Shown: positions 17,975 through 50,512 of the stretch, in pieces
How the letters are laid out: each line of letters opens with the position of its first letter
How positions within the stretch are numbered: the stretch's first letter is position 1
Origin: Valencia hispanica
Taxonomy: Eukaryota > Chordata > Actinopteri > Cyprinodontiformes > Valenciidae
Assembly: GCA_963556495.2 (NCBI GenBank)
Contig: OY747721.1
Coordinates: 32,722,849 to 32,786,848, forward strand
Reading direction: 5' to 3'
DNA length: 64,000 bases
Notes under the pieces: model-generated
Databases searched by the model: none
Told to the model about the DNA's origin: nothing
What the model saw: only the letters and a program-made list of their open reading frames with translations
Translations under genes and position numbers: made by a program

Positions 17975-17990
17975 AATCCCTCTTTCAATC
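17975..17990 (-). other. Polypurine tract
   Basis: Directly inside the 3' LTR the minus strand reads TTGAAAGAGGGATT and then the LTR's TGTTG. Polypurine tracts prime plus-strand DNA synthesis in retroviruses. Confidence 0.7.
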
Positions 17991-17996
17991 TATTTT

Positions 17997-18260: not shown

Positions 18261-19240
18261 AGTGAGAAGAGTGTCTGTTTTTTTTTTTATCTTTACCTTT
18301 AAGCAATATTTTTTTCTAATTTATTATTATTGTTTTTTATGTTTTAACCTAATTCTCAATATTCTTTTAGTAAAAAGCAAACTCTAGCAATTGTCACCAA
18401 CCCCAAAAACATCCTACAAAAACCACATCATAATGAAAAAAGAATAAGTAAAACAAAAATTAGTAGTCAGTCAACCTGATTATACTTTAAACACTCCTTA
18501 AAATGTTTTATCTTATTACTAAAAAGTTTTATAAAACCGTAAAAACTGGATATTAAGAAAAAATCCTACAAATCGACTACTTAAAAATTCTTTGACACCC
18601 TCTTAGGCAGTGTCTAGCAGTCTGCACCTGTAAATAAAAATTGGTTAAACAACCTGTAAAATACAAGAAAAATGATTAGTAAGTGTTCAGTCTTTATTAT
18701 TTTGTTCTCTAGTCTTCGCTCTTGTTTATTTCTCTGGCAGCAGGTGGCTACCAGAGTGATGAAATGATTCAGTACAGTGGACTCTTTATTTTTCCCAAAG
18801 TTACTGTCTTTTATGCAGATCGCCCTCACTGAAATGACAGTTACTTCATTAACTGAACATTTCCCCCAATAAACACAAATGCACAGACAGGCCCCGCCTC
18901 CAATAGCTTCCCCCACCGATTGTGAGGTGGTCAAAACCTGCTGTGAAATGTGTTTGATTTCTTGCGATCTTTTCTCTTCGGTACAATCCCTCTTCGAGAA
19001 AAGCAAGTCCAAATTGTTTATCTCGCCCAATTTTTTGCACATATAGATTACACTGGATGATTACAGCAACTTCAACCAATCTTCTGGGTGGGTCAGGCCC
19101 CGCCTCCTGGCTTCGGCAGTCGACACCGCCTAGTCAGAACCGACACCACCCGCTGCAAAGAGATTCTCCCAGGTCAGCAGAGAGCTGCTGCAGCGTGAGG
19201 GACAGGAGGGGGGTCGGGAGGAAGGAGGAGACCAGGCCCT
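18261..19240 (-). other. Retroviral interior without intact gene (deleted pol/env junction)
   Basis: Only frames up to 142 codons on the minus strand (18614-19042), with no motif I can assign; the shorter one at 18849-19079 has an LYVQKIGRD-type segment that might be decayed env. This interval replaces the integrase C-terminus and most of env, so about 1.5-2 kb of the original virus is missing or rearranged here. Confidence 0.5.
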
Positions 19241-24596: not shown

Positions 24597-24620
24597 TGAA
24601 TATTCGTAACAAAAATCCAA

Positions 24621-26435: not shown

Positions 26436-26453
26436 TGCCCGCATCCTCCACCA
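26436..26453 (-). other. Candidate primer-binding site
   Basis: Three nucleotides inside the 5' LTR the minus strand reads TGGTGGAGGATGCGGG. It begins TGG as required to pair with a tRNA 3' CCA. The pairing tRNA tail (GCATCCTCCACCA) is close to, but not identical with, the tRNA-Ala 3' end as I know it, so tRNA identity is left open. Confidence 0.5.
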
Positions 26454-26456
26454 TTT

Positions 26457-27030
26457 TGTCGGCTTCTTATCATAATGTGCTCTGGAACTCACTTTTTTTT
26501 ACTCAGAGAGGTGGGGGCGCCGAACTCCAAAACCCCAGCGGGAACTGTTTCAAAATAAGACCCAGAACTGAGAGACAGAGAGTAAAACAACACACACAAA
26601 CAGATATCTGTTTCAGAAAGGACGCACCTGCAGATGGGAGCCAGAACAGATCTGACTCGCTTCTCTACAAGGGTGTACCATTTTTATTTCAGAAGAACAA
26701 AGAACATATCACATGACTCCTCTCTCCTCCTTCTACATCTTGACAGGTCATTTATTTTCTCCAGGTCTCCTGACCGTACCATGAGTACCATGAACTCGGG
26801 TTGTAACATGAACTAGAGTTATAACTGATCCTCCCTGCTTTCAGTTCATATCTTTACTCAAGAGTTTGTTTACTTAAAACCTTGAAACCTATAAAATACT
26901 GGTAAAAGAGTCATGTTTTACTACCCTGAATAATATAAACAGGCCTATTACTTCTAAAGCTTAAAAAAGATATAATTAAAACATATGTACTGCATAATAA
27001 AAAATAGCCCCAAAAAAGTAGAATACAACA
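26457..27030 (-). repeat. 5' LTR of the endogenous retrovirus
   Basis: 574 bp, TG...CA, same sequence as 17401-17974 apart from about four substitutions. It is the 5' LTR because the primer-binding site and leader adjoin its inner edge at 26456. Confidence 0.92.
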
Positions 27031-31686: not shown

Positions 31687-33086
31687 CAGGTCCTTCTAAA
31701 AAAATTAGCATATTGTGATAAAGTTCATTCTTTTCCATAATGTAATGATAAAAATTTAACTTTCATATATTTTAGATTCATTGCACACCAACTGAAATAT
31801 TTCAGGTCTTTTATTGTTTTAGAACTGATGATTTTGGCAGCTCATGAAAACCCAAAATTCCTATCTCAAAAAATTTGCATATTTCATCTGACCAATAAAA
31901 GAAACGTGTTTTTAATATAAAAAAAAGTCAACCTTCAAATAATTATGTTCAGTTATGCACTCAATACTTGGTCAGGAATCCTTTTGCAGAAATGGCTGCT
32001 TCAATGCGGCGTGGCATGGAGGCAATCAGCCTGTGGCACTGCTGAGGTGTTATGGAGGCCCAGGATGCTTCGATAGCGGCCTTAAGCTCATCCAGAGTGT
32101 TGGGTCTTGCGTCTCTCAACTTCCTCTTCACAATATCCCACAGATTCTCTATGGGGTTCAGGTCAGGAGAGTTGGCAGGCCAATTGAGCACAGTAATACC
32201 ATGGTCAGTAAACCATTTACCAGTGGTTTTGGCACTGTGAGCAGGTGCCAGGTCGTGCTGAAAAATTAAATCTTCATCTCCATAAAGCTTTTCAGCAGAT
32301 GGAACCATGAAGTGCTCCAAAATCTCCTGATAGCTAGCTGCATTGACCCTGCCCTTGATAAAACACAGTGGACCAACACCAGCAGCTTCTGCCGCTGTTT
32401 CTGGTTCAAAAGTGGCTTGACCTGGGGAATGCGGCACCTGTAGCCCATTTCCTGCACACGCCTGTGCACGGTGGCTCTGGATGTTTCTACACCAGACTCA
32501 GTCCACTGCTTCCGCAGGTCCCCCAAGGTTTGGAATCGGTCCTTCTCCACAATCTTCCTCAGGGTCCGGTCACCTCTTCTCGTTGTGCAGTGTTTTCTGC
32601 CACACTTTTTCCTTCCCACAGACTTCCCACTGAGGTGCCTTGATACAGCACTCTGGGAACAGCCTATTCGTTCAGAAATTTCTTTCTGTGTCTTACCCTC
32701 TTGCTTGAGGGTGTCAATGATGGCCTTCTGGGCAGCAGTCAGGTCGACAGTCTTACCCATGATTGCGGTTTTGAGTAATGAACCAGGCTGGGAGTTTTTA
32801 AAAGCCTCAGGAATCTTTTGCAGGTGTTTAGAGTTAATTAGTTGATTCAGATGATTAGGTTAATAGCTCGTTTAGAGAACCTTTTCATGATATGCTAATT
32901 CTTTGAGATAGGAATTTGGGGTTTTCATGAGCTGTATGCAAAAATCATCAGTTTTAAAACAATAAAAGACCTGAAATATTTCAGTTGGTGTGCAATGAAT
33001 CTAAAATATATTAAAGTTAAATTTTTATTACATTATGGAAAAGAATTAACTTCATCACAAAATGCTAATTTTTTGAGAAGGACCTG
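31687..33086 (-). mobile_element. Tc1-like element with about 200-bp terminal inverted repeats
   Basis: A 1400-bp unit begins CAGGTCCTTCT and ends in the complement, flanked by TA on both sides (31685-31686 and 33087-33088), as expected for Tc1/mariner insertion. The inverted repeats extend about 200 bp (31687-31895 and 32880-33086) and share blocks such as ATTCATTGCACACCAACTGA and CTCATGAAAACCC. A broken transposase is inside. Confidence 0.9.
31961..32760 (-). pseudogene. Tc1-like transposase, internal deletion removes first catalytic Asp
   Basis: The N-terminal part starts at ATG 32760 (MGKTVDLTAAQKAIIDTLKQ) and has two helix-turn-helix regions, the first around residues 8-45 (EISERIGCSQSAVSRHL), the second around 65-110. 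After KPLLNQKQRQK the frame is lost. The C-terminal part (about 32390-31961, other frame) has FQHDLAPAHSAK, the second catalytic Asp region, and SPDLNPIENLWD with the catalytic Glu, ending GFLTKY. The block that normally holds the first catalytic Asp between the two parts is missing, about 75 codons judged from family layout. Binding of its own ends might persist; cleavage cannot. Confidence 0.85.
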
Positions 33087-35359: not shown

Positions 35360-35390
35360 CTCTATTGTTACCTCCACCACGGAGGTTATG
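35360..35390 (+). repeat. Left fragment of fish repeat used as target by the palindromic element
   Basis: TTACCTCCACCACGGAGGTTATG ends with the target duplication GTTATG (35385-35390). The same repeat resumes after the element at 50470 (GTTATGTTTTCGCCAGGGTT), and again after a solo LTR at 50964 (TAACTCAAAATGTTATTGAC). Joined in that order they match a very common teleost repeat. Confidence 0.75.
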
Positions 35391-35436
35391 AGAGAAAGTA
35401 TAGACCACTAGCTGTCAAAATGCAAATGAGACCACG

Positions 35437-35613
35437 CCCCTTCCGGGTACGCCCCTTCCGGGTACGCCCACTTCCGGGTACGCCCCTTCCGGGTACGCCC
35501 ACTTCCGGGTACGCCCACTTCCGGGTACGCCCACTTCCGGGTACGCCCATTTCCGGGTACGCCCATTTCCGGGTACGCCCCTTCCGGTTACGCCCCTTCC
35601 GGTTACGCCCACT
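35437..35613. repeat. Left terminal tandem array, 15-17 bp unit
   Basis: About eleven copies of CC(A)C(C/T)TTCCGGGTACGCC. In complement each unit reads GGCGTACCCGGAAGTGG or a variant, which includes the ETS-type core CCGGAAGT in about four units. Mirror copy at 50247-50423. Confidence 0.9.
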
Positions 35614-35639
35614 TTTGCAGGCTCCCTGGTTGCCGTGAC

Positions 35640-35965
35640 AAGCTCCGCCCTGTCATAATAAGCTCTGCCCCCTGATGGCCACGCCCACCTGTCACAATAA
35701 GCCCCGCCCCCTGATGGCCCCGCCCACCTGTCAAAACGGGATACGCCCCCTGGTGGGCACGCCCACCTGTCAAGATAGGACACACCCACCTGTCAAAATG
35801 GGGTACGCCCCCTGGTGGCCACGCCCACTTGTCAAAATAGGACGCGCCCACCTGTCAAAATAGGGTACGCCCCCTGGTGACCACGCCCACCTGTCAAAAT
35901 AGGACACGCCCACCTGTCGAAATAGGGTACGCCCCCTGATGGTCACGCCCACCTGTCAAAATATG
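35640..35965. repeat. Left minisatellite with CTCF-like cores
   Basis: Imperfect units containing CACGCCCACCTGTCAAAATA and ACGCCCCCTGGTGGCCACGC. The second, in complement, matches the vertebrate CTCF core (CCACCAGGGGGCG) closely; six such cores. Mirror at 49895-50220. Confidence 0.85.
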
Positions 35966-36422
35966 GCACTAAATGGCTCCCTCTAGTGGTTCTACAATTA
36001 AACTAAATGCAAAAAATGAAAATACCTCCCCCTAGTGGCCCAATAAATACTATTACACCAAAACTTATAAATGCCTCCCTCTAGTGGTTCAAAATTAATA
36101 TAACAGCCTATTGTATAATTGGCCCCCTCTAGTGGATCAAAGTAACATTACATGCAAATCTAAAAATACCTCCCCCTAGTGGCTCTAAAATTAAATGACA
36201 TGCAAATATGAAAATACCTCCCCCTAGTGGCCCAATAAATAGTATTACACCCAAATGTGAAAATACCTCCCTCTAGTGGTTCAAAATTAATATAACAGCC
36301 TATTGTATAATTGGCCCCCTCTAGTGGATCAAAGTAACATTACTCCCAAATGTGAAAATACCTCCCCCTAGTGGCTCAAAAATTAAATTACAGCCTATAG
36401 TATATATAGCGCCCCCAATGGT
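35966..36422. repeat. Left array with CCCCCTAGTGG cores, 192-bp higher-order unit
   Basis: Ten CCCC(C/T)CTAGTGG-like cores spaced roughly 40-50 bp. Two long units (starting near 36021 and 36213) are near-copies 192 bp apart. Mirror at 49438-49894. Confidence 0.85.
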
Positions 36423-36852
36423 TTGAATCTAACTCCTCAGTGTCATCAGAACATGTCCGAACAAGTCCCTTTAATATTATACGGTCTGGGCTCTGTCTCA
36501 ACATGACTCCTTGAGCATTCCATTTTATTTTAAACAGTTAAAAGGTGCTTTTTAGCTTCCTGACTTTAATTTAAAACCACATTAGCTCCAACACTCTAGA
36601 GACACCATTACATCTGATTCTAACAATTCAACCATGATAAATTAAACTTGTAAGAGCACTAAAAAGAGAATTTATTCACCCACAGCTATGTTGAAGCAGA
36701 TGCTCATCCTTTTGTTGATTTTAAAAATGCACCATTACACAGTCTTTAAAAACAGATAAGGATTTTAAAAAACATCACTTTAAACCTGGGTGCTTTAAGC
36801 TGGAAATAAGAAATCTATCAAACTACTAAAGTTACTGATAAAAAACAGTCCA

Positions 36853-37020
36853 CCAATCAGCGTTTGACACGCCCCTGCTCTGCTTTGTATTCGCTGTATT
36901 TATCACGCCCCTGTCTTCACCTACGTCCGCAAGTCGGGTAAACCGGTTTGGGCGGTGCTCACCGGGCGGCATTTACCTGTATAAAAGGCTGTCGGAAAAC
37001 GGTTAATCTCTACAGCATGC
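36853..37020 (+). promoter_or_regulatory. Left-arm promoter: CCAAT box and TATA box
   Basis: CCAAT at 36853-36857 and TATAAAAG at 36980-36987 precede the polymerase gene on the correct strand, with GC-rich sequence between. Transcription would start near 37010-37020. Mirror: ATTGG 49003-49007 and CTTTTATA 48873-48880. Confidence 0.7.
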
Positions 37021-37457
37021 TGGAAGGACCTCATTCAACAATCCGACCTTAAGGACACGGAGCGCGGTGCTGCGACGAACAAAGAAAACAGCGGTTTCAC
37101 GAAGACTGTATCACCGGCTTCATTCGAGGGGAATCCCAGAAGCCCGCGTCATTGTCAGACCGCGTCAGAGCTGAGTCCAGGCGGGATTCCCGAGCTTCCC
37201 CTGCTAAGAGCTGGAGTTACGGGTTCAGCGAGGAAATCAACTTCACATCGACTACAGGAAGTCTTCACATCGGCGACCTGTATTATCGGTTTGGAGCGAG
37301 GTGAGTAAATGTTTTTTTTAGCTCGCAATTGTGCGGTCGTCTACGGATGTTTGATAGCACCAAGATGGATTCGGTGCTGGCTTATCGATAGATTCACCGT
37401 AGCATACATACTCTGTTACAGCTAGAAGTATCGCTCAACTGCAGTTACTGCTCTGAG

Positions 37458-38046
37458 CTGGTTTTGGGCTGGAGCGGGAAAAAGGCGGTGGAGATTGTTA
37501 CAAAGCGAAACTCCACTCTGAGGTGAGTTTACTTTTTTTTAAATTATGTTGACTGTTTAGATACGGGTATTACCGTATTTTTATTTATTTTATTATATTC
37601 CTGACTTTTACCTGCGTTTTATCATAGATCGTGATCGAAGCGCGGAGCTGTTTTCAATTGGATCTCAGCGGATCTGCCCAACGCCCGCCTCGCTACTTCA
37701 ATTAACAGTGAGACTGTCTGGAGCTTTCTCCAACTTGTGTATTGTCTGACTCTGGTTTCGGGCTGGAGCGGGAAAAAGGCACTGGGGTTGTTACAAAGCG
37801 AAACTCCGCTCTGAGGTGAGTTTACTGTTTTTAAAATTATGTTGACTGTTTAGATACGGGTATTACCGTATTTTTATTTATTTTATTATATTCCTGACTT
37901 TTACCTGCGCTTTATCATAGATCGTGATCGAAGCGCGGAGCTGTTTGCAATTGGACCTCAGCGGATCTGCCCAACGCCAGCCTTGCTACTTCAGTTAACA
38001 GTGAGACTGTCTGGAGCTTTCTCCAACTTGTGTATTGTCTGACTCT
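37458..38046 (+). repeat. Tandemly duplicated leader (2 x about 294 bp) with splice-like signals
   Basis: Copies 37458-37751 and 37752-38046 are about 95% alike by eye. Each has GAG|GTGAGT (donors at 37523 and 37816) and a T-rich TTTATCATAG (acceptor ends 37627 and 37920). Another donor lies at 37301 (GAG|GTGAGT), and TTTAAATAG at 38092 is a last possible acceptor before the ATG at 38111. Together they suggest a spliced 5' UTR in which one exon-intron unit was duplicated. Confidence 0.65.
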
Positions 38047-38110
38047 AAATGTTTTTTCATGTCCTTTTTTTTCTGATCGTGTGTTTAAATAGCAACATCA
38101 ACCAGTCACT

Positions 38111-41100
38111 ATGAATGTCTCACAGGAGCTAAATAGTCCTCAACCGTCTAGTCAGGAAGATGAAGAATTTCAGATCAATGTACGTGACGAATTCAATAAC
38201 ATAGAGATCCGACACAACTTTGTCCGGCCTGAGGGTGATCATCCGTGTCCGTATGAATTTCATAATCACATATTGAATTTGCTCAGGGGTTTATCAGACC
38301 GGGTGACACCGCTGGTTAACACTAACGATATTGTGCAGATAGAGGTTAATGGACCCGGCGTGTCTCGCAGCGTAACTTTCTCTGTCGATGAAGGGGGGAG
38401 TAACGTCATGCACCAGTTCGAAACGTTTTTAGATGATCTGATGCAATCCAATGCTGAAATAGCCTCAACAGAGCGTTTGGAGTTTGTAATTCAAACAGTG
38501 CGTGATCTTAGCGGGGGAGCTAGACGAAAAGCTGAAATGTCTCTCGATTGCGAGCTTATACACAAGAAGAGACGCCACCTATACATTGTGAACAATGATC
38601 GAGATGATAAACTGTGTTTTGCTATTAGCTTAGCCTGTGTTGCAGACCCTAGCCTCGGCTCCGATGCGGCTATACAGCTCGGTAGAGAGTTGCAACAGCG
38701 TGCAGGCCTTTCAGAACACACCCCCGTCAGATCAGGCGATATCCACAAATTTGAGAAGTTGTTGAACAGAAAAATAGTTGTTTTTATCAGAAGTGAGGGA
38801 GAGAGAGCTCTAGGGAAGATTCAGACCAACTTTGAGGACCGAAGCAGGACTGTTTTTCTATTGCACTTCCGAGACCATTACTACGGGATCAAAAACTTGA
38901 AGGGTTTTATAGGGGCTCGGGATATTTGTCACTACTGTTTCGATCCTATAGGGCATAAATACAATCATGTATGCAAAGGTTCGTGCGCTGTCTGCAATGA
39001 TGCAGCGTGTGCTCAGGGGGTTACAAATCCGATTCTTTGTCATGACTGTAACAGATATTGCAAGAACCAGACGTGTTACGATAGACATAAAGTACCTGAG
39101 CTAAAACCCAGGGCGCGTGTGATGGTCAGTCATTGTGATCAGGTGAAGAAATGTCCCAACTGTGGGTTAAACTATAACCAGAGTCTCACAACAGGCAAGA
39201 AGCATGTGTGTCAAGGGAAGAAGTGTAGGATTTGTGGGGGTAAGCTTGACAAGGACCAGCCAGCATCGGACCATAAATGTTATATCCAAACATGCTCTGT
39301 CGATACCGAAATAAGTGACAAGGTGATTTTTTACGATATTGAAACTTTCCCTGGTGCGCAGGGTGAGCATGTTCCATTTCTGATCTGTTCAAAGTCCACA
39401 TCTGGCGAGGAGTGGTCAGCCTACGGTAGTGATTGTATTCGGGAGTTTATTCGTGAAATCAGGAGGCCGGGCCGTCGGAATTACACATGTGTAGCCCATA
39501 ATGCTAGAGCTTTTGATTCCTACCTTGTTCTGAATTCAATGACGGAGATGGGTTTAAATCCTGACATCATTATGCAAGGGTGTAAAATTCTGAGCATCAC
39601 TGATCCTGATTACGGTTTGAGGTTCATTGACAGCCTATCTTTCCTTGCCATGAAGCTTAGTAAAATGCCTGAAGCCCTCGGTTTTCCTGACCATAGCAAG
39701 GGCTATTTCCCACACCGTTTCTCATCCTCTGATAATCTGAGCTATGTAGGTTCTTACCCGCTGCCATCATTTTACGGTGTTGAGCGAATGAATCGTGCTG
39801 AGCAGGAGGAATTCTATACATGGTACGCTGAGGTTAGCAAGGGCGTGTTTGACTTTAAAAAGGAGGCTCTCTTTTACTGTAAGAATGATGTGGAGATACT
39901 CCTACAAGGATGTACAAGGTTTCGTCAGGAGTTTTTTAACGACAGTCAGATTGACCCTTTTAACAGGATCACCATCGCAAGTGCTTGTATGAAAGTGTTT
40001 CAAAGCAATCATTTGAAGGCAGACACTCTCGCTGTGCCTTCACCTACAGACTACAGCGAACAGTTTAAAAAGTTTTCCACAGCTTCCGTTGAATGGTTGG
40101 AATATGTTTCACATACATGGAGGGTTGGAATACAGCATGCTCTAAGAGGTGGTGAGAAAAAGATTGGATCATATTTTTTAGACGGTTACCTGGAGGTAGG
40201 GGAGCGTAAAATAGGGTTTGAGTTCCATGGGTGTGAGCATCATGGCTGCAGCACCTGTCGCTATCCAACAGCTGAGAGTCCATTGACCGGTGTGCCTTAT
40301 GGGCAGCTCTACGCTGCCACCATGGAGAGGGAGCATGTGCTGAGGACTGTGTACGGTATAGAGCTCGAGGTGATGTGGGAACATGTGTGGGAAGAAATGA
40401 AGAAGAGTAACGCTGATGTGAAGCAGTTCATGATGACCTACCAGGCTCCTGCACCACTTACCCCCCGTGAAGCGCTTTTTGGAGGGCGTACATGTGCAGT
40501 CAGGTTGAGGTACTCTGCAGCCCCCGGTGAGCAGGTTCTTTACCAGGACGTGTGTAGTCTTTACCCATTTGTTCAGAAGACAAAAAGCTTTCCTGTAGGG
40601 CACCCGATCATAATCAGGGAAAACTTTGATGATCCTAGAAATTATTATGGATTTATCAAAGCAGTCATTTCACCACCTCGTGGTCTTTATTTCCCCATTC
40701 TACCATTCAGAACAGATCATGGAAAGCTTGTATTCACCCTTTGTCGCACATGTGCATTGGAGAACAATCAGACACATAGTTGCACCCACACTGACACTGA
40801 GAGAGCCTTAACAGGTGTATGGGTGTCTGAAGAGGTTAAAGAAGCCCTTTCACACGGCTACAGAATCGATCAGATCGTTGAGGTGTGGCACTTTGAGCAG
40901 CATAGTGATCAGATCTTTGCAAAGTATGTCAACTCCTTTTTGAAGACCAAGCAGGAAGCTTCAGGTTATCCTGAGGGTGTAGAGAGCGAGGAGGACAAAC
41001 AGAAATACATCCAGGATTTCATGATGAATCAGGGTGTAGAGTTAGACCCTGAAAAAATTAAAGTAAACCCGGCAAAACGTCAAGTAGCCAAACTGTGTTT

Positions 41101-41806
41101 GAATTCGCTTTGGGGGAAGTTTGCTCAAAAAAATGACCAAACCCAAACCTCAATCATTAAACACCCTGACAAGTTTTTTGAGTTCCTGTTTTCAGGGAAG
41201 TTCGTTGTGACATACTTCAGCTTTCTGAACCCCAAGATGGTCATGATTCAATGGAAGTACAACAAAAACTGTGTAACGCCCCCTAACAAAACCACCAATG
41301 TCTTCGTTGCCGCATTTACAACAGCTTACGCACGACTAGAGTTATTCAGATACCTACACCAACTCCAAGAACGGGTACTCTACCTTGACACAGACAGTGT
41401 GATCTATGTTGTGCGTGAAGGCGAGAGCTCTCTGCCGACAGGTAGCTATTTAGGTGACTTGACAAACGAGCTCCCACCAGGGGACACCATTCAGGAGTTT
41501 GTTGCCGCAGGGCCAAAGAGTTACTCGTATCAGACAAAGCACAGGGGGAAGGTCGTGATGAGGGCAAAGGGGATATCGCGAACCATAGAATGCTGTGAAA
41601 GGGTGAATTTTGATACAATGACAGGACTTGTTGACGGTTACCTGGGTGGTGAGAGAGGCGAGGTACTCAAAGCACCGCAGCATTCCATCAAACGTGATAA
41701 AAACGGGTTCCATCTGAGGAATCACTCATTTACCAAAACTTTCAGGGTGGTCTATGACAAGCGGAGGTTGTTCCCAGACGGAACGACGCTACCATTTGGT
41801 TTTTGA
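38111..41806 (+). CDS. polB: Protein-primed family B DNA polymerase, left arm
   Basis: 1231 aa. Replicates the linear element from a protein primer (family knowledge). Residues 1-140 are unassigned. Residues 155-260 look OTU-like: D165-K-L-C168 and later H256-Y-Y. A Cys/His-rich, probably zinc-binding region spans 273-390. The 3'-5' exonuclease has YDIET at 408-412 (D409, E411), N464/D469 in HNARAFD and YCKND with D593. The palm has motif A DVCSLYPF (D813, Y818), motif B KLCLNSLWG (994-1002), motif C YLDTDS (D1093, D1095) and GPKSY with K1136. Residues 820-970, between motifs A and B, hold the TPR1/TPR2 insertions expected of protein-primed enzymes. No catalytic residue is missing. The ATG at 38111 has A at -3. 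Stop is 8 nt before the next gene. Confidence 0.95.
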   Translation: MNVSQELNSPQPSSQEDEEFQINVRDEFNNIEIRHNFVRPEGDHPCPYEFHNHILNLLRGLSDRVTPLVNTNDIVQIEVNGPGVSRSVTFSVDEGGSNVMHQFETFLDDLMQSNAEIASTERLEFVIQTVRDLSGGARRKAEMSLDCELIHKKRRHLYIVNNDRDDKLCFAISLACVADPSLGSDAAIQLGRELQQRAGLSEHTPVRSGDIHKFEKLLNRKIVVFIRSEGERALGKIQTNFEDRSRTVFLLHFRDHYYGIKNLKGFIGARDICHYCFDPIGHKYNHVCKGSCAVCNDAACAQGVTNPILCHDCNRYCKNQTCYDRHKVPELKPRARVMVSHCDQVKKCPNCGLNYNQSLTTGKKHVCQGKKCRICGGKLDKDQPASDHKCYIQTCSVDTEISDKVIFYDIETFPGAQGEHVPFLICSKSTSGEEWSAYGSDCIREFIREIRRPGRRNYTCVAHNARAFDSYLVLNSMTEMGLNPDIIMQGCKILSITDPDYGLRFIDSLSFLAMKLSKMPEALGFPDHSKGYFPHRFSSSDNLSYVGSYPLPSFYGVERMNRAEQEEFYTWYAEVSKGVFDFKKEALFYCKNDVEILLQGCTRFRQEFFNDSQIDPFNRITIASACMKVFQSNHLKADTLAVPSPTDYSEQFKKFSTASVEWLEYVSHTWRVGIQHALRGGEKKIGSYFLDGYLEVGERKIGFEFHGCEHHGCSTCRYPTAESPLTGVPYGQLYAATMEREHVLRTVYGIELEVMWEHVWEEMKKSNADVKQFMMTYQAPAPLTPREALFGGRTCAVRLRYSAAPGEQVLYQDVCSLYPFVQKTKSFPVGHPIIIRENFDDPRNYYGFIKAVISPPRGLYFPILPFRTDHGKLVFTLCRTCALENNQTHSCTHTDTERALTGVWVSEEVKEALSHGYRIDQIVEVWHFEQHSDQIFAKYVNSFLKTKQEASGYPEGVESEEDKQKYIQDFMMNQGVELDPEKIKVNPAKRQVAKLCLNSLWGKFAQKNDQTQTSIIKHPDKFFEFLFSGKFVVTYFSFLNPKMVMIQWKYNKNCVTPPNKTTNVFVAAFTTAYARLELFRYLHQLQERVLYLDTDSVIYVVREGESSLPTGSYLGDLTNELPPGDTIQEFVAAGPKSYSYQTKHRGKVVMRAKGISRTIECCERVNFDTMTGLVDGYLGGERGEVLKAPQHSIKRDKNGFHLRNHSFTKTFRVVYDKRRLFPDGTTLPFGF

Positions 41807-41814
41807 GGGGGAAA

Positions 41815-42498
41815 ATGCAGCATCAGGGTGAACTGGAAGCGATTAACTTTGATCCAAGATTTAAAACTCCTTTTTCAAGTCTTGTGGTAGGCCCGAGTGG
41901 CTGTGGGAAGTCTTTTTTTGTAAAAAATGTTTTGATTAATTGTCTACATGTGATGGATTCTGTACCTGAAAATATTGTTTGGATCTACACTTCATTCCAA
42001 CCATTGTATACGGAATTGATGAAGATTAATAAATCAATTAAATTCATCGAAGGATTGCCTCATTCCTTTGAAGATGATGTTTTATTCCCCCCAGATCAAT
42101 CGCATCTATTGATTCTCGATGATGTACTCTTTCAAGCAGCTGAGCATCCAGAGGTCGTGAAAATATTTACACAATATCGACACCATAGAAACATGAGCGT
42201 TATGATGTTGACTCAGAATGTGTTTCTCAAGGGGAAACATACTCGAACTATCAGTCTTAATTGTAATTATATGGTCTTGTTTAAAAACCCACGTGACAGA
42301 TTGCAGGTAGCAAATTTAGCACGTCAAATTTTCCCTGGACAGAAACCCTTTTTCATGGAGAGTTTTGAAGATGCTACGAGCCAACCACACGGCTATTTAT
42401 GTGTAGACCTAACCCCTGACACACCAGACCAATACAGGCTCAGGACAGGTTTACTTCCTGGACAGTGGCCGGCTGTTTACATAGCTAAGAACAAGTGA
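41815..42498 (+). CDS. A32/FtsK-HerA-like packaging ATPase, left arm
   Basis: 227 aa from the ATG at 41815 (MQHQGELEAINFD), which has A at -3. The open frame extends 12 nt further up only through a TTG. Counting from that TTG, the Walker A motif is GPSGCGKS at 30-37, Walker B LLILDD at 102-107, followed by a QYRHHRN segment and a LTQN sensor-like motif near 145. Size and motifs fit the genome-packaging ATPase shared by Polintons, adintoviruses and poxvirus A32 (family knowledge); it would pump DNA into capsids, yet no capsid gene is present here. ATG is 8 nt after the PolB stop; stop is 5 nt before the next ATG. A non-packaging role is possible if capsids come from elsewhere. Confidence 0.9.
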   Translation: MQHQGELEAINFDPRFKTPFSSLVVGPSGCGKSFFVKNVLINCLHVMDSVPENIVWIYTSFQPLYTELMKINKSIKFIEGLPHSFEDDVLFPPDQSHLLILDDVLFQAAEHPEVVKIFTQYRHHRNMSVMMLTQNVFLKGKHTRTISLNCNYMVLFKNPRDRLQVANLARQIFPGQKPFFMESFEDATSQPHGYLCVDLTPDTPDQYRLRTGLLPGQWPAVYIAKNK

Positions 42499-42503
42499 CC
42501 AAC

Positions 42504-42842
42504 ATGTCGGCACGCATAAAAAGAAATGCACCGTTACTAGGGGCTCTTTTTCATTCCACACCCCAGAAACGTAAAGATATCCTAACTCATTGTTCTCCCG
42601 ACTTTCTACAAACCTTGTGCGAGATTGCTTTAAATGTGCTGAAAGGGAACATCAAGCTGTCCACAACACAATACAACAGACTTAAGAAGCAGAAAAAAAT
42701 CCTCAGGCTGTTGGCTGATCGGAAGGTGGGGTTAAAGCGCAAACGACAGACATTGAAAACCCAGACAGGAGGAATTCTCCCACTGATTGCAGCTGTAATA
42801 CCGTTTCTCGGAGAATTGGTGGCTGGAATATTCCGCCGGTAG
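42504..42842 (+). CDS. Small basic Polinton protein with hydrophobic C-terminus, left arm
   Basis: 112 aa from ATG 42504 (MSARIKRNAPLLGALFHSTP), good -3 A; a GTG-started extension to 42495 is not credible. Layout: an N-terminal helix-forming region with STPQKRKDIL; LCEIALNVLKGNIKLS at about 38-53; a very basic stretch 60-86 rich in Lys and Arg; a Gly-Gly; then a hydrophobic segment 91-110 ending RR. Proteins of this shape follow the ATPase in many animal Polintons and related viruses; their job is unknown to me. The hydrophobic tail could be membrane-active and the basic part could bind DNA, both inference. Lies 5 nt after the ATPase stop. Confidence 0.8.
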   Translation: MSARIKRNAPLLGALFHSTPQKRKDILTHCSPDFLQTLCEIALNVLKGNIKLSTTQYNRLKKQKKILRLLADRKVGLKRKRQTLKTQTGGILPLIAAVIPFLGELVAGIFRR

Positions 42843-42849
42843 AGGTGTA

Positions 42850-43008
42850 TTATGACACTGAGAGCATCACAGAAAATGTTTCTAGTCTCACCGCATCAGT
42901 GTCATCCTGAGCCTTCTGTCGTATGGTTCCGGAGTTATCCCGTTGCTTCAGACGATTTAATTGATGCGGTGAGACTAGAAACATTTTCTGTGATGCTCTC
43001 AGTGTCAT
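42850..43008 (-). pseudogene. Truncated start of a fourth Polinton gene crossing the palindrome centre
   Basis: On the minus strand ATG 43008 opens 9 nt after the small-protein stop and reads 16 codons shared by both arms (MTLRASQKMFLVSPHQ), then 21 codons through the unique spacer (beginning LNRLKQ, rich in Arg, Gln and Asp), and then runs into the inverted arm and stops after 52 codons. The spacer reading resembles the N-terminus of the gene that follows the small protein in other Polintons (recollection of the family, not a search). On the plus strand (42852-43010) the same 16 codons continue with unrelated residues. So only the minus strand keeps the native continuation. Confidence 0.65.
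42899..42961. other. 63-bp unique spacer at the palindrome centre
   Basis: The only non-palindromic part of the element. Left arm ends CCGCATCA (42898), right arm starts TGATGCGG (42962). Length is a multiple of three and open on both strands. Confidence 0.9.
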
Positions 43009-43017
43009 AATACACCT

Positions 43018-43356
43018 CTACCGGCGGAATATTCCAGCCACCAATTCTCCGAGAAACGGTATTACAGCTGCAATCAGTGGGAGAATTCCTCCTGTCTGGG
43101 TTTTCAATGTCTGTCGTTTGCGCTTTAACCCCACCTTCCGATCAGCCAACAGCCTGAGGATTTTTTTCTGCTTCTTAAGTCTGTTGTATTGTGTTGTGGA
43201 CAGCTTGATGTTCCCTTTCAGCACATTTAAAGCAATCTCGCACAAGGTTTGTAGAAAGTCGGGAGAACAATGAGTTAGGATATCTTTACGTTTCTGGGGT
43301 GTGGAATGAAAAAGAGCCCCTAGTAACGGTGCATTTCTTTTTATGCGTGCCGACAT
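43018..43356 (-). CDS. Small basic Polinton protein with hydrophobic C-terminus, right arm
   Basis: Exact inverted copy of the plus-strand gene at 42504-42842: 112 aa, same start context, basic middle (60-86) and hydrophobic end (91-110). Its stop lies 9 nt before the ATG of the truncated fourth gene, and here the native continuation of that gene is preserved, making this arm the likely parental one. Nothing distinguishes its product from that of the left arm. Confidence 0.8.
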   Translation of the reverse strand: MSARIKRNAPLLGALFHSTPQKRKDILTHCSPDFLQTLCEIALNVLKGNIKLSTTQYNRLKKQKKILRLLADRKVGLKRKRQTLKTQTGGILPLIAAVIPFLGELVAGIFRR

Positions 43357-43361
43357 GTTGG

Positions 43362-44045
43362 TCACTTGTTCTTAGCTATGTAAACAGCCGGCCACTGTCC
43401 AGGAAGTAAACCTGTCCTGAGCCTGTATTGGTCTGGTGTGTCAGGGGTTAGGTCTACACATAAATAGCCGTGTGGTTGGCTCGTAGCATCTTCAAAACTC
43501 TCCATGAAAAAGGGTTTCTGTCCAGGGAAAATTTGACGTGCTAAATTTGCTACCTGCAATCTGTCACGTGGGTTTTTAAACAAGACCATATAATTACAAT
43601 TAAGACTGATAGTTCGAGTATGTTTCCCCTTGAGAAACACATTCTGAGTCAACATCATAACGCTCATGTTTCTATGGTGTCGATATTGTGTAAATATTTT
43701 CACGACCTCTGGATGCTCAGCTGCTTGAAAGAGTACATCATCGAGAATCAATAGATGCGATTGATCTGGGGGGAATAAAACATCATCTTCAAAGGAATGA
43801 GGCAATCCTTCGATGAATTTAATTGATTTATTAATCTTCATCAATTCCGTATACAATGGTTGGAATGAAGTGTAGATCCAAACAATATTTTCAGGTACAG
43901 AATCCATCACATGTAGACAATTAATCAAAACATTTTTTACAAAAAAAGACTTCCCACAGCCACTCGGGCCTACCACAAGACTTGAAAAAGGAGTTTTAAA
44001 TCTTGGATCAAAGTTAATCGCTTCCAGTTCACCCTGATGCTGCAT
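43362..44045 (-). CDS. A32/FtsK-HerA-like packaging ATPase, right arm
   Basis: Exact inverted copy of 41815-42498: 227 aa from ATG 44045 with Walker A GPSGCGKS, Walker B LLILDD and the LTQN motif. Same 8-nt and 5-nt spacing to its neighbours. The minus-strand frame is open up to 44057 only by a TTG codon, so the ATG is preferred. Identical amino-acid sequence to the left copy, so there is no sign of decay or divergence between the arms. Confidence 0.9.
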   Translation of the reverse strand: MQHQGELEAINFDPRFKTPFSSLVVGPSGCGKSFFVKNVLINCLHVMDSVPENIVWIYTSFQPLYTELMKINKSIKFIEGLPHSFEDDVLFPPDQSHLLILDDVLFQAAEHPEVVKIFTQYRHHRNMSVMMLTQNVFLKGKHTRTISLNCNYMVLFKNPRDRLQVANLARQIFPGQKPFFMESFEDATSQPHGYLCVDLTPDTPDQYRLRTGLLPGQWPAVYIAKNK

Positions 44046-44053
44046 TTTCCCCC

Positions 44054-47000
44054 TCAAAAACCAAATGGTAGCGTCGTTCCGTCTGGGAACAACCTCCGCT
44101 TGTCATAGACCACCCTGAAAGTTTTGGTAAATGAGTGATTCCTCAGATGGAACCCGTTTTTATCACGTTTGATGGAATGCTGCGGTGCTTTGAGTACCTC
44201 GCCTCTCTCACCACCCAGGTAACCGTCAACAAGTCCTGTCATTGTATCAAAATTCACCCTTTCACAGCATTCTATGGTTCGCGATATCCCCTTTGCCCTC
44301 ATCACGACCTTCCCCCTGTGCTTTGTCTGATACGAGTAACTCTTTGGCCCTGCGGCAACAAACTCCTGAATGGTGTCCCCTGGTGGGAGCTCGTTTGTCA
44401 AGTCACCTAAATAGCTACCTGTCGGCAGAGAGCTCTCGCCTTCACGCACAACATAGATCACACTGTCTGTGTCAAGGTAGAGTACCCGTTCTTGGAGTTG
44501 GTGTAGGTATCTGAATAACTCTAGTCGTGCGTAAGCTGTTGTAAATGCGGCAACGAAGACATTGGTGGTTTTGTTAGGGGGCGTTACACAGTTTTTGTTG
44601 TACTTCCATTGAATCATGACCATCTTGGGGTTCAGAAAGCTGAAGTATGTCACAACGAACTTCCCTGAAAACAGGAACTCAAAAAACTTGTCAGGGTGTT
44701 TAATGATTGAGGTTTGGGTTTGGTCATTTTTTTGAGCAAACTTCCCCCAAAGCGAATTCAAACACAGTTTGGCTACTTGACGTTTTGCCGGGTTTACTTT
44801 AATTTTTTCAGGGTCTAACTCTACACCCTGATTCATCATGAAATCCTGGATGTATTTCTGTTTGTCCTCCTCGCTCTCTACACCCTCAGGATAACCTGAA
44901 GCTTCCTGCTTGGTCTTCAAAAAGGAGTTGACATACTTTGCAAAGATCTGATCACTATGCTGCTCAAAGTGCCACACCTCAACGATCTGATCGATTCTGT
45001 AGCCGTGTGAAAGGGCTTCTTTAACCTCTTCAGACACCCATACACCTGTTAAGGCTCTCTCAGTGTCAGTGTGGGTGCAACTATGTGTCTGATTGTTCTC
45101 CAATGCACATGTGCGACAAAGGGTGAATACAAGCTTTCCATGATCTGTTCTGAATGGTAGAATGGGGAAATAAAGACCACGAGGTGGTGAAATGACTGCT
45201 TTGATAAATCCATAATAATTTCTAGGATCATCAAAGTTTTCCCTGATTATGATCGGGTGCCCTACAGGAAAGCTTTTTGTCTTCTGAACAAATGGGTAAA
45301 GACTACACACGTCCTGGTAAAGAACCTGCTCACCGGGGGCTGCAGAGTACCTCAACCTGACTGCACATGTACGCCCTCCAAAAAGCGCTTCACGGGGGGT
45401 AAGTGGTGCAGGAGCCTGGTAGGTCATCATGAACTGCTTCACATCAGCGTTACTCTTCTTCATTTCTTCCCACACATGTTCCCACATCACCTCGAGCTCT
45501 ATACCGTACACAGTCCTCAGCACATGCTCCCTCTCCATGGTGGCAGCGTAGAGCTGCCCATAAGGCACACCGGTCAATGGACTCTCAGCTGTTGGATAGC
45601 GACAGGTGCTGCAGCCATGATGCTCACACCCATGGAACTCAAACCCTATTTTACGCTCCCCTACCTCCAGGTAACCGTCTAAAAAATATGATCCAATCTT
45701 TTTCTCACCACCTCTTAGAGCATGCTGTATTCCAACCCTCCATGTATGTGAAACATATTCCAACCATTCAACGGAAGCTGTGGAAAACTTTTTAAACTGT
45801 TCGCTGTAGTCTGTAGGTGAAGGCACAGCGAGAGTGTCTGCCTTCAAATGATTGCTTTGAAACACTTTCATACAAGCACTTGCGATGGTGATCCTGTTAA
45901 AAGGGTCAATCTGACTGTCGTTAAAAAACTCCTGACGAAACCTTGTACATCCTTGTAGGAGTATCTCCACATCATTCTTACAGTAAAAGAGAGCCTCCTT
46001 TTTAAAGTCAAACACGCCCTTGCTAACCTCAGCGTACCATGTATAGAATTCCTCCTGCTCAGCACGATTCATTCGCTCAACACCGTAAAATGATGGCAGC
46101 GGGTAAGAACCTACATAGCTCAGATTATCAGAGGATGAGAAACGGTGTGGGAAATAGCCCTTGCTATGGTCAGGAAAACCGAGGGCTTCAGGCATTTTAC
46201 TAAGCTTCATGGCAAGGAAAGATAGGCTGTCAATGAACCTCAAACCGTAATCAGGATCAGTGATGCTCAGAATTTTACACCCTTGCATAATGATGTCAGG
46301 ATTTAAACCCATCTCCGTCATTGAATTCAGAACAAGGTAGGAATCAAAAGCTCTAGCATTATGGGCTACACATGTGTAATTCCGACGGCCCGGCCTCCTG
46401 ATTTCACGAATAAACTCCCGAATACAATCACTACCGTAGGCTGACCACTCCTCGCCAGATGTGGACTTTGAACAGATCAGAAATGGAACATGCTCACCCT
46501 GCGCACCAGGGAAAGTTTCAATATCGTAAAAAATCACCTTGTCACTTATTTCGGTATCGACAGAGCATGTTTGGATATAACATTTATGGTCCGATGCTGG
46601 CTGGTCCTTGTCAAGCTTACCCCCACAAATCCTACACTTCTTCCCTTGACACACATGCTTCTTGCCTGTTGTGAGACTCTGGTTATAGTTTAACCCACAG
46701 TTGGGACATTTCTTCACCTGATCACAATGACTGACCATCACACGCGCCCTGGGTTTTAGCTCAGGTACTTTATGTCTATCGTAACACGTCTGGTTCTTGC
46801 AATATCTGTTACAGTCATGACAAAGAATCGGATTTGTAACCCCCTGAGCACACGCTGCATCATTGCAGACAGCGCACGAACCTTTGCATACATGATTGTA
46901 TTTATGCCCTATAGGATCGAAACAGTAGTGACAAATATCCCGAGCCCCTATAAAACCCTTCAAGTTTTTGATCCCGTAGTAATGGTCTCGGAAGTGCAAT

Positions 47001-47749
47001 AGAAAAACAGTCCTGCTTCGGTCCTCAAAGTTGGTCTGAATCTTCCCTAGAGCTCTCTCTCCCTCACTTCTGATAAAAACAACTATTTTTCTGTTCAACA
47101 ACTTCTCAAATTTGTGGATATCGCCTGATCTGACGGGGGTGTGTTCTGAAAGGCCTGCACGCTGTTGCAACTCTCTACCGAGCTGTATAGCCGCATCGGA
47201 GCCGAGGCTAGGGTCTGCAACACAGGCTAAGCTAATAGCAAAACACAGTTTATCATCTCGATCATTGTTCACAATGTATAGGTGGCGTCTCTTCTTGTGT
47301 ATAAGCTCGCAATCGAGAGACATTTCAGCTTTTCGTCTAGCTCCCCCGCTAAGATCACGCACTGTTTGAATTACAAACTCCAAACGCTCTGTTGAGGCTA
47401 TTTCAGCATTGGATTGCATCAGATCATCTAAAAACGTTTCGAACTGGTGCATGACGTTACTCCCCCCTTCATCGACAGAGAAAGTTACGCTGCGAGACAC
47501 GCCGGGTCCATTAACCTCTATCTGCACAATATCGTTAGTGTTAACCAGCGGTGTCACCCGGTCTGATAAACCCCTGAGCAAATTCAATATGTGATTATGA
47601 AATTCATACGGACACGGATGATCACCCTCAGGCCGGACAAAGTTGTGTCGGATCTCTATGTTATTGAATTCGTCACGTACATTGATCTGAAATTCTTCAT
47701 CTTCCTGACTAGACGGTTGAGGACTATTTAGCTCCTGTGAGACATTCAT
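44054..47749 (-). CDS. polB: Protein-primed family B DNA polymerase, right arm
   Basis: Exact inverted copy of 38111-41806, 1231 aa with identical residues throughout, including exonuclease (D409, E411, D469, D593) and polymerase (D813, K994, D1093, D1095, K1136) positions. Each arm therefore supplies a full polymerase, and the two genes are transcribed toward one another. Having two identical copies tells against long residence in the genome, unless gene conversion between arms keeps them alike. Confidence 0.95.
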   Translation of the reverse strand: MNVSQELNSPQPSSQEDEEFQINVRDEFNNIEIRHNFVRPEGDHPCPYEFHNHILNLLRGLSDRVTPLVNTNDIVQIEVNGPGVSRSVTFSVDEGGSNVMHQFETFLDDLMQSNAEIASTERLEFVIQTVRDLSGGARRKAEMSLDCELIHKKRRHLYIVNNDRDDKLCFAISLACVADPSLGSDAAIQLGRELQQRAGLSEHTPVRSGDIHKFEKLLNRKIVVFIRSEGERALGKIQTNFEDRSRTVFLLHFRDHYYGIKNLKGFIGARDICHYCFDPIGHKYNHVCKGSCAVCNDAACAQGVTNPILCHDCNRYCKNQTCYDRHKVPELKPRARVMVSHCDQVKKCPNCGLNYNQSLTTGKKHVCQGKKCRICGGKLDKDQPASDHKCYIQTCSVDTEISDKVIFYDIETFPGAQGEHVPFLICSKSTSGEEWSAYGSDCIREFIREIRRPGRRNYTCVAHNARAFDSYLVLNSMTEMGLNPDIIMQGCKILSITDPDYGLRFIDSLSFLAMKLSKMPEALGFPDHSKGYFPHRFSSSDNLSYVGSYPLPSFYGVERMNRAEQEEFYTWYAEVSKGVFDFKKEALFYCKNDVEILLQGCTRFRQEFFNDSQIDPFNRITIASACMKVFQSNHLKADTLAVPSPTDYSEQFKKFSTASVEWLEYVSHTWRVGIQHALRGGEKKIGSYFLDGYLEVGERKIGFEFHGCEHHGCSTCRYPTAESPLTGVPYGQLYAATMEREHVLRTVYGIELEVMWEHVWEEMKKSNADVKQFMMTYQAPAPLTPREALFGGRTCAVRLRYSAAPGEQVLYQDVCSLYPFVQKTKSFPVGHPIIIRENFDDPRNYYGFIKAVISPPRGLYFPILPFRTDHGKLVFTLCRTCALENNQTHSCTHTDTERALTGVWVSEEVKEALSHGYRIDQIVEVWHFEQHSDQIFAKYVNSFLKTKQEASGYPEGVESEEDKQKYIQDFMMNQGVELDPEKIKVNPAKRQVAKLCLNSLWGKFAQKNDQTQTSIIKHPDKFFEFLFSGKFVVTYFSFLNPKMVMIQWKYNKNCVTPPNKTTNVFVAAFTTAYARLELFRYLHQLQERVLYLDTDSVIYVVREGESSLPTGSYLGDLTNELPPGDTIQEFVAAGPKSYSYQTKHRGKVVMRAKGISRTIECCERVNFDTMTGLVDGYLGGERGEVLKAPQHSIKRDKNGFHLRNHSFTKTFRVVYDKRRLFPDGTTLPFGF

Positions 47750-47813
47750 AGTGACTGGTTGATGTTGCTATTTAAACACACGATCAGAAAAAAAAGGACA
47801 TGAAAAAACATTT

Positions 47814-48402
47814 AGAGTCAGACAATACACAAGTTGGAGAAAGCTCCAGACAGTCTCACTGTTAACTGAAGTAGCAAGGCTGGCGTTGGGCAGATCCGCT
47901 GAGGTCCAATTGCAAACAGCTCCGCGCTTCGATCACGATCTATGATAAAGCGCAGGTAAAAGTCAGGAATATAATAAAATAAATAAAAATACGGTAATAC
48001 CCGTATCTAAACAGTCAACATAATTTTAAAAACAGTAAACTCACCTCAGAGCGGAGTTTCGCTTTGTAACAACCCCAGTGCCTTTTTCCCGCTCCAGCCC
48101 GAAACCAGAGTCAGACAATACACAAGTTGGAGAAAGCTCCAGACAGTCTCACTGTTAATTGAAGTAGCGAGGCGGGCGTTGGGCAGATCCGCTGAGATCC
48201 AATTGAAAACAGCTCCGCGCTTCGATCACGATCTATGATAAAACGCAGGTAAAAGTCAGGAATATAATAAAATAAATAAAAATACGGTAATACCCGTATC
48301 TAAACAGTCAACATAATTTAAAAAAAAGTAAACTCACCTCAGAGTGGAGTTTCGCTTTGTAACAATCTCCACCGCCTTTTTCCCGCTCCAGCCCAAAACC
48401 AG
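47814..48402 (-). repeat. Duplicated leader with splice-like signals, right arm
   Basis: Mirror of 37458-38046; both copies and all donor- and acceptor-like signals are present, so the tandem duplication predates the palindrome or was copied with it. Confidence 0.65.
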
Positions 48403-48839
48403 CTCAGAGCAGTAACTGCAGTTGAGCGATACTTCTAGCTGTAACAGAGTATGTATGCTACGGTGAATCTATCGATAAGCCAGCACCGAATCCATCTTGG
48501 TGCTATCAAACATCCGTAGACGACCGCACAATTGCGAGCTAAAAAAAACATTTACTCACCTCGCTCCAAACCGATAATACAGGTCGCCGATGTGAAGACT
48601 TCCTGTAGTCGATGTGAAGTTGATTTCCTCGCTGAACCCGTAACTCCAGCTCTTAGCAGGGGAAGCTCGGGAATCCCGCCTGGACTCAGCTCTGACGCGG
48701 TCTGACAATGACGCGGGCTTCTGGGATTCCCCTCGAATGAAGCCGGTGATACAGTCTTCGTGAAACCGCTGTTTTCTTTGTTCGTCGCAGCACCGCGCTC
48801 CGTGTCCTTAAGGTCGGATTGTTGAATGAGGTCCTTCCA

Positions 48840-49007
48840 GCATGCTGTAGAGATTAACCGTTTTCCGACAGCCTTTTATACAGGTAAATGCCGCCCGGTG
48901 AGCACCGCCCAAACCGGTTTACCCGACTTGCGGACGTAGGTGAAGACAGGGGCGTGATAAATACAGCGAATACAAAGCAGAGCAGGGGCGTGTCAAACGC
49001 TGATTGG
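48840..49007 (-). promoter_or_regulatory. Right-arm promoter: CCAAT box and TATA box
   Basis: Mirror of the left promoter: CCAAT on the minus strand at 49003-49007, TATAAAAG at 48873-48880, start expected near 48840-48850. Confidence 0.7.
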
Positions 49008-49437
49008 TGGACTGTTTTTTATCAGTAACTTTAGTAGTTTGATAGATTTCTTATTTCCAGCTTAAAGCACCCAGGTTTAAAGTGATGTTTTTTAAAATCC
49101 TTATCTGTTTTTAAAGACTGTGTAATGGTGCATTTTTAAAATCAACAAAAGGATGAGCATCTGCTTCAACATAGCTGTGGGTGAATAAATTCTCTTTTTA
49201 GTGCTCTTACAAGTTTAATTTATCATGGTTGAATTGTTAGAATCAGATGTAATGGTGTCTCTAGAGTGTTGGAGCTAATGTGGTTTTAAATTAAAGTCAG
49301 GAAGCTAAAAAGCACCTTTTAACTGTTTAAAATAAAATGGAATGCTCAAGGAGTCATGTTGAGACAGAGCCCAGACCGTATAATATTAAAGGGACTTGTT
49401 CGGACATGTTCTGATGACACTGAGGAGTTAGATTCAA

Positions 49438-49894
49438 ACCATTGGGGGCGCTATATATACTATAGGCTGTAATTTAATTTTTGAGCCACTAGGGGGAGGT
49501 ATTTTCACATTTGGGAGTAATGTTACTTTGATCCACTAGAGGGGGCCAATTATACAATAGGCTGTTATATTAATTTTGAACCACTAGAGGGAGGTATTTT
49601 CACATTTGGGTGTAATACTATTTATTGGGCCACTAGGGGGAGGTATTTTCATATTTGCATGTCATTTAATTTTAGAGCCACTAGGGGGAGGTATTTTTAG
49701 ATTTGCATGTAATGTTACTTTGATCCACTAGAGGGGGCCAATTATACAATAGGCTGTTATATTAATTTTGAACCACTAGAGGGAGGCATTTATAAGTTTT
49801 GGTGTAATAGTATTTATTGGGCCACTAGGGGGAGGTATTTTCATTTTTTGCATTTAGTTTAATTGTAGAACCACTAGAGGGAGCCATTTAGTGC
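49438..49894. repeat. Right array with CCACTAG(A/G)GGG cores
   Basis: Mirror of 35966-36422. On the plus strand ten cores read CCACTAGGGGGAGG or CCACTAGAGGG; the innermost is CCATTGGGGGCGCTA at 49439-49453. Confidence 0.85.
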
Positions 49895-50220
49895 CATATT
49901 TTGACAGGTGGGCGTGACCATCAGGGGGCGTACCCTATTTCGACAGGTGGGCGTGTCCTATTTTGACAGGTGGGCGTGGTCACCAGGGGGCGTACCCTAT
50001 TTTGACAGGTGGGCGCGTCCTATTTTGACAAGTGGGCGTGGCCACCAGGGGGCGTACCCCATTTTGACAGGTGGGTGTGTCCTATCTTGACAGGTGGGCG
50101 TGCCCACCAGGGGGCGTATCCCGTTTTGACAGGTGGGCGGGGCCATCAGGGGGCGGGGCTTATTGTGACAGGTGGGCGTGGCCATCAGGGGGCAGAGCTT
50201 ATTATGACAGGGCGGAGCTT
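49895..50220. repeat. Right minisatellite with CTCF-like cores
   Basis: Mirror of 35640-35965. Six cores, the best being GTGGCCACCAGGGGGCGTAC at 50038-50057. Confidence 0.85.
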
Positions 50221-50246
50221 GTCACGGCAACCAGGGAGCCTGCAAA

Positions 50247-50423
50247 AGTGGGCGTAACCGGAAGGGGCGTAACCGGAAGGGGCGTACCCGGAAATGGGCG
50301 TACCCGGAAATGGGCGTACCCGGAAGTGGGCGTACCCGGAAGTGGGCGTACCCGGAAGTGGGCGTACCCGGAAGGGGCGTACCCGGAAGTGGGCGTACCC
50401 GGAAGGGGCGTACCCGGAAGGGG
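50247..50423. repeat. Right terminal tandem array, 15-17 bp unit
   Basis: Mirror of 35437-35613; on the plus strand the units read GGCGTACCCGGAAGTGG or GGCGTACCCGGAAGG. Confidence 0.9.
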
Positions 50424-50469
50424 CGTGGTCTCATTTGCATTTTGACAGCTAGTGGTCTATACTTTCTCT

Positions 50470-50512
50470 GTTATGTTTTCGCCAGGGTTTGTTTGTTAAT
50501 TAGCAACATAAC
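50470..50512 (+). repeat. Target repeat, middle fragment, starting with the second GTTATG
   Basis: GTTATG (50470-50475) is the right-hand target duplication of the palindromic element. The text TTTTCGCCAGGGTTTGTTTG that follows is the normal continuation of the repeat broken at 35390. Confidence 0.8.

Follow-up and report, generated by a model that had tools for sequence, protein, structure and literature searches.

A palindromic Maverick/Polinton in the Valencia hispanica genome, read as a probable integrated copy-back genome

We analysed a 64,000-bp stretch of the Valencia hispanica assembly (1.29 Gb in 29 contigs; C26:32722849-32786848), hereafter the window, which carries at positions 35391-50469 a Maverick/Polinton element of 15,079 bp built as one large palindrome. 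The original prediction had described exact inverted arms, and the alignment of arm 1 (35391-42898, plus strand) with the reverse complement of arm 2 (42962-50469, minus strand) bore this out: 7508 of 7508 bases were identical, a 63-bp spacer (42899-42961) separated the arms, and the repeat extended by 0 bases both inward and outward. The same arm pair was recovered by a separate inverted-repeat listing of the window (I1, 100%). A perfect 6-bp target-site duplication (TSD), GTTATG, lies flush with both termini (35385-35390 and 50470-50475), in agreement with the further claim that the inverted repeat is the element itself, and the flanks were unlike each other over the roughly 60 bases compared per side. 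The TSD at both ends and the unlike flanks indicate either that the palindrome was inserted as such or that it took its full form between ends already in place. When the joined flanks were used as an empty-site query, no second match was identified in the window or in the family loci retrieved by then.

As had been predicted, each arm encodes an intact PolB, ATPase and small protein, of 1231, 227 and 112 aa. PolB (38111-41806, plus strand) is an organellar/viral-type B polymerase (PF03175, E 3.7e-56), and it is followed by the packaging ATPase (41815-42498; PF02456, E 7e-06, above its cut-off) and by PM (42504-42842), which is 47% identical to an open reading frame (ORF) between the ATPase and PZ genes of a related contig, L001. 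Their identical minus-strand counterparts in arm 2, assigned from arm identity and an ORF check, lie at 44054-47749, 43362-44045 and 43018-43356, respectively. Next to the centre, a minus-strand ORF of 52 aa (42850-43008) carries about 38 native residues of a truncated PZ and then a chimeric tail, as judged from the L001 match and from other copies of the family, while the truncated PZ start of arm 1 (42852-43010, plus strand) runs through 16 native residues, again by the L001 match, and then through the spacer in antisense. The PZ of a conventional copy, L010, has 215 aa. The outer parts of the palindrome, 35391-37182 and its mirror image at 48678-50469, are the counterparts of the terminal inverted repeats (TIRs) of about 1.79 kb found in conventional copies; they contain tandem repeats, and the terminus reads AGAGAAAG.

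Vertebrate Mavericks carry a first module in the order ppolb-atp-pm-pz and, on the other strand, a second module with the integrase, capsid genes and protease, both pointing centrally; they measure 12,723-24,620 bp (mean 16,862, SD 1,678) and end in the 6-bp motifs (AGT)2, (AG)3 or (AC)3A (PMC8097293). The element resembles them in its PolB-ATPase-PM-PZ order, 6-bp TSD, AG-rich terminus and length, and its terminal AGAGAA matches (AG)3 at 5 of 6 positions. It is unlike them in that it is a palindrome without the second module, in which one gene set is duplicated in inverse, and in that its inverted repeats measure 7508 bp, compared with the 46-1,447 bp that the same survey gives for intact Mavericks (PMC8097293). 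We identified a right module in the conventional copy L017, where Pfam recognized a protease and an integrase (rve plus chromodomain), both in open ORFs, and found no match for three other ORFs (435, 148 and 120 aa). A blastn comparison of the arm with L017 gave no match. Judging by gene content, each arm corresponds to the first, or left, module of vertebrate Mavericks/Polintons, and the right module, with integrase, protease and more, is absent from the palindrome. In the record of L017 and its companion piece L018 (G000:C26), a 415-bp repeat (L017 5357-5771, L018 831-1245) flanks an interruption, looking like the long terminal repeats (LTRs) of an inserted retrotransposon.

We also compared the individual proteins with their relatives. 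Among the 120 of 394 ATPase matches listed, the best named relative was the FtsK of a Larimichthys croaker adintovirus (70%), and the four best named relatives all came from fish. A PM-like stretch was found behind the ATPase in the Astyanax gene model P0055, and an Astyanax adintovirus ORF resembled PZ. Hexon and integrase, the defining genes of adintoviruses (PMC11071296), are absent from the ORFs listed or scanned in the element, the hexon not having been searched by its own profile. With a PZ alignment as the query, 64 proteins were found at E values of 1 or below, and a search with a 42-residue region of PZ gave no match. PM and the PZ fragment found nothing useful in PHROGs and Pfam, searches of viral contigs with PolB and three ATPase alignments gave no relatives, and five weak matches of PolB to 'Cake' chains in the PDB were taken as chance. 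The PolB of the element and that of L001 were 38% identical in a two-sequence alignment. L001 itself (CAMQXY010000166.1) is a contig of a Photobacterium bin that encodes four proteins of an animal-type Maverick (PolB, ATPase, PM and PZ), which suggests animal DNA contaminating a bacterial genome record.

The spacer consists of native PZ codons read on the minus strand and forms the loop of the fold-back. We found that the minus-strand reading from 43008 to 42850 gave an ungapped match of 33 residues with the L001 PZ that ran through the spacer (score 66, against at most 41 in 500 shuffles), and that the spacer residues alone scored 33, a value reached in 2 of 2000 shuffles. The plus strand was rejected as the native reading (score 22, reached in 156 of 2000 shuffles). 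Of four PZ sequences compared, L001 was the sole match; the more distant L002, L003 and L004 gave no signal. In all six other copies retrieved, the arm is followed by the identical 63 bases in the same orientation and then by TGATGAGGACATG, where the palindrome has TGATGCGGTG instead, so that arm 2 and the spacer are colinear with the native element. Past the turn, the parent reads TGATGAGG and the palindrome TGATGCGG. In the parent, CATCA is followed after 63 nt by TGATG; this 5-nt microhomology is the precise turning point of the palindrome, and its halves lie on the minus strand at 42962-42966 (CATCA) and 42894-42898 (TGATG). An inverted dimer formed through a terminal hairpin was rejected, since the turn lies inside PZ and not at an end. 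With a probe across the window junction, an end-to-end match was obtained at the window only (40 places scored of 228 candidates); the other 39, among which C7 and C3:4.06M, two further fold-back loci, are each represented by both of their sides, matched only probe positions 53-183, on the native side, together with part of the arm on the opposite strand.

A census of the family was then made with a PolB probe of the assembly, which samples only turns more than 6.6 kb from the left end; of 272 first-look candidates, 40 were scored, representing 38 loci. Thirty of these looked conventional, 20 of them in reads of the locus 8.9-9.9 kb long (L017 together with the 7.2-kb L018, L019-L025, L027-L029 and L031-L039), with the right terminus present in 19 of the 20 (the exception being L022); the other 10 were judged from one 500-base piece each, where other rearrangements are possible. 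These conventional copies are candidate parental helpers. A left fold-back junction was found at five of the 38 loci (the window, C7, C17:36.84M, C17:22.83M and C3:4.56M), and the junction probe added a sixth from outside this sample, C3:4.06M, giving six left fold-back loci with five kinds of junction. The remaining three sampled loci were an inverted duplication on C9, a deletion at C24:42.46M and C1:11.84M, to which no class was assigned. At the C9 locus (L030, G000:C9:11459720-11468620), 2.4 kb of the right module are repeated in inverse orientation across a 113-bp spacer, and the sequence then jumps into the TIR. At C24 (L040, G000:C24:42462243-42472143), most of the right module is gone and the TIR is kept, an internal-deletion form.

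Four of the fold-back loci, the window included, are full palindromes of 13.0-15.9 kb with a second terminus and their own 6-bp TSD. C7 measures 15,944 bp (TSD CACGTA, loop 647, microhomology TCTGG) and contains both complete PolB-ATPase-PM sets plus one PZ of 215 aa. C17:36.84M (13,017 bp, TSD CCCATG, loop 1973, CTCAGGAT) and C3:4.56M (14,020 bp, TSD AACATG, loop 1795, CCTCA) were read piecewise and not end to end; in both, the second PolB is incomplete, with re-entry at the equivalents of window 40975 and 41563, respectively, inside PolB. The junction of C17:22.83M equals that of C17:36.84M to the base (697 bp in common, 2 mismatches), and the left flanks of the two sites, 14 Mb apart, are unlike each other; at C17:22.83M only 284 bp of the reversed arm are present, and a second terminus was not seen. 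The four simple junctions show microhomologies of 5, 5, 8 and 5 nt, and at least 5 nt was reached by chance in 0.55% of 200,000 random fold-back pairs.

Long perfect palindromes are a classic type of artefact, and a missed hairpin adapter, chimeric amplification or misjoined TIRs might produce one during assembly or amplification. However, the flanks of the window element differ and a 6-bp TSD is present, on which ground the hairpin-adapter explanation was rejected; three of the other palindromes have TSDs of their own, and the arms of C7 differ at their outer ends, so that C7 is not one read folded on itself. Given six fold-back loci with five junctions in all, their own TSDs and one junction common to two loci, an artefact is very unlikely indeed.

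Measured from the left end, the last native base lies at 7.566, 7.576 and 7.973 kb in three loci and at about 8.69 kb in C7 (a derived value), in a small sample of breakpoints. Distinct junctions nearly reuse breakpoints, 10 nt apart at the equivalents of window 42956-42966 (L062, L064), and C3:4.06M and C3:4.56M break at the same GGCCTCA. The computed DNA fold of the turn region showed nothing unusual (z -1.05), and thus no hairpin accounts for the close-set breakpoints. One might ask whether palindromic Mavericks, instead of being accidents, belong regularly to the life cycle as a selected form, such as a programmed replication-only stage or a satellite. The six fold-back loci with five junctions, the turns at 7.57, 7.58, 7.97 and about 8.69 kb, the sizes of the four complete palindromes (13.0-15.9 kb) and the two complete PolB-ATPase-PM sets kept by C7 and the window would fit such a form, but the junctions vary from copy to copy without a fixed site, the second PolB is broken in C17 and C3:4.56M, and the PolB probe could register only turns beyond 6.6 kb from the left end. 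We regard a regular form as very improbable.

The likely account, in our view, is that a young, high-copy Maverick/Polinton family gave rise to a snap-back (copy-back) defective genome, of which the element is the integrated form. The replication of this family is expected to be protein-primed, judging from its relatives. The process would have begun with linear Maverick DNA, either excised or brought in by infection, which the protein-primed, strand-displacing PolB replicated from its left end. Near the middle of the genome, the nascent 3′ end, ...TGATG, would have quit its template and paired with its own CATCA 63 nt upstream, and the nascent strand would then have copied itself back to its 5′ end to give a hairpin. 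Copying of the hairpin from its origin would yield a linear duplex of 15,079 bp with functional ends on both sides, which the integrase of an intact copy would insert with a 6-bp TSD. The resulting palindrome would possess two full PolB-ATPase-PM sets, yet would need helpers for integration and capsids. The snap-back reading had already been put forward in the original prediction, and it is supported by the family identity, the conventional parents, the microhomology at the turn and the TSD. One genome end is inverted and duplicated, the other is lost, and the turn lies at the parental CATCA/TGATG; the length of 15,079 bp, which falls within the published Maverick range, also counts in its favour.

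The termini bear on how the second arm was made. The conventional C26 copy, the sole conventional copy with both ends read, has the TSD CATGTG on both sides, and an alignment of its two ends over 380 nt shows 13 substitutions and 6 gap columns. Among all 12 ends compared, the outer 380 bases varied, with no pair within 4 substitutions and 90 gap columns. The ends of the window element are identical while those of the family vary, suggesting that the copying of arm 2 probably ran until the DNA molecule ended; chromosomal copying would be expected to continue into the flank. With no difference in 7508 bases, the arms have diverged by less than about 4e-4 (rule of three), and by this measure the palindrome is very young, provided that its identity is not maintained by arm-to-arm conversion.

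The main rival is a change in place, in which a conventional Maverick broke near PZ, its left end folded back at the 5-nt microhomology and copied the left arm outward, and the product joined the right TIR by homology, so that the right module was replaced. Such a change accounts equally well for the microhomology, the TSD and the lost module. In a MAFFT alignment, the arms of C7 show 3 substitutions and 177 gap columns, all within 497 nt of the outer end, where BLAST counted 7 mismatches and 41 gap columns between the arms, and the outer ends of C17:36.84M and C3:4.56M also differ, as if one end of each palindrome were the original right TIR. These three may owe one end to another TIR, which a chromosomal repair model would predict too. 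The C9 locus, with its inverted right-module copy joined into the TIR, also fits a change in place. Other points weigh against copy-back itself: microhomology is not universal, with about 1 nt at the C9 duplication, the junction of C3:4.06M is complex (spacer 558, in 1.4 kb read around the turn), the window's own junction was found once only among the 40 places scored of 228, and we infer all five steps of the copy-back scheme. The differing ends of the other palindromes keep the in-place explanation alive. Against it, the ends of the window element are identical to the last base and those of the conventional C26 copy are not, and one junction at two sites with unlike left flanks suggests mobility after formation, as is expected if a palindromic molecule multiplied. 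The arm identity and the shared junction thus favour copy-back, and we judge a change in place to be rather unlikely.

Left-end palindromes also arise from protein-primed linear DNAs, namely in the left-end symmetrical variants of adenovirus and the inverted-dimer deletion plasmids of yeast pGKL1. Neither of these is known to be integrated with TSDs. Packaged genomes of adeno-associated virus (AAV) include symmetric and asymmetric snapbacks as well as internal deletions, the same range as the Maverick forms described here, and both systems show inverted duplications of the left half, whose loops may be short or long; however, AAV is a Rep-nicked parvovirus known from packaged molecules, whereas the Maverick forms are integrated and their replication is expected to be protein-primed (PMC8235507). 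The claim that no such Polinton had been described held in the open-licence Polinton, Maverick and adintovirus literature, as far as titles and the starts of abstracts among the matches listed go, subscription literature lying mostly outside. The words palindrom, fold-back, snapback and interfering are all absent from the vertebrate survey, which required an integrase within 4-40 kb of PolB (PMC8097293). By this rule, elements of the present kind are expected to be skipped, and the class may be overlooked.

Two other mobile elements lie to the left of the palindrome in the window. A Ty3-type LTR retrotransposon (17401-26756) has two identical end repeats of 300 bp, a long pol ORF (protease, reverse transcriptase, RNase H and integrase) and a zinc-knuckle ORF. 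Tc1-like transposase ORFs spread across two frames at 31961-32859, with inverted repeats nearby at 31748-31839 and 32937-33028.

We tentatively propose, as a possibility beyond the window, that folded Mavericks without an integrase form a recurrent parasitic class, which would arise repeatedly by turns near the middle of the genome, multiply in the form of free palindromes whose replication genes are doubled, be integrated by intact relatives and, by convergent transcription of their identical arms, possibly contribute to small-RNA silencing of the family. The finding bears on the replication mode of Mavericks, on their existence as free linear DNA and on their virus-like behaviour. Snap-back-like chromosomal copies, whose parents and turns are resolved to the base, provide physical, though indirect, evidence that replication starts from the ends by strand displacement and that integration occurs in trans, and the identical, convergent arms of 7.5 kb are relevant to palindrome stability and small-RNA control.

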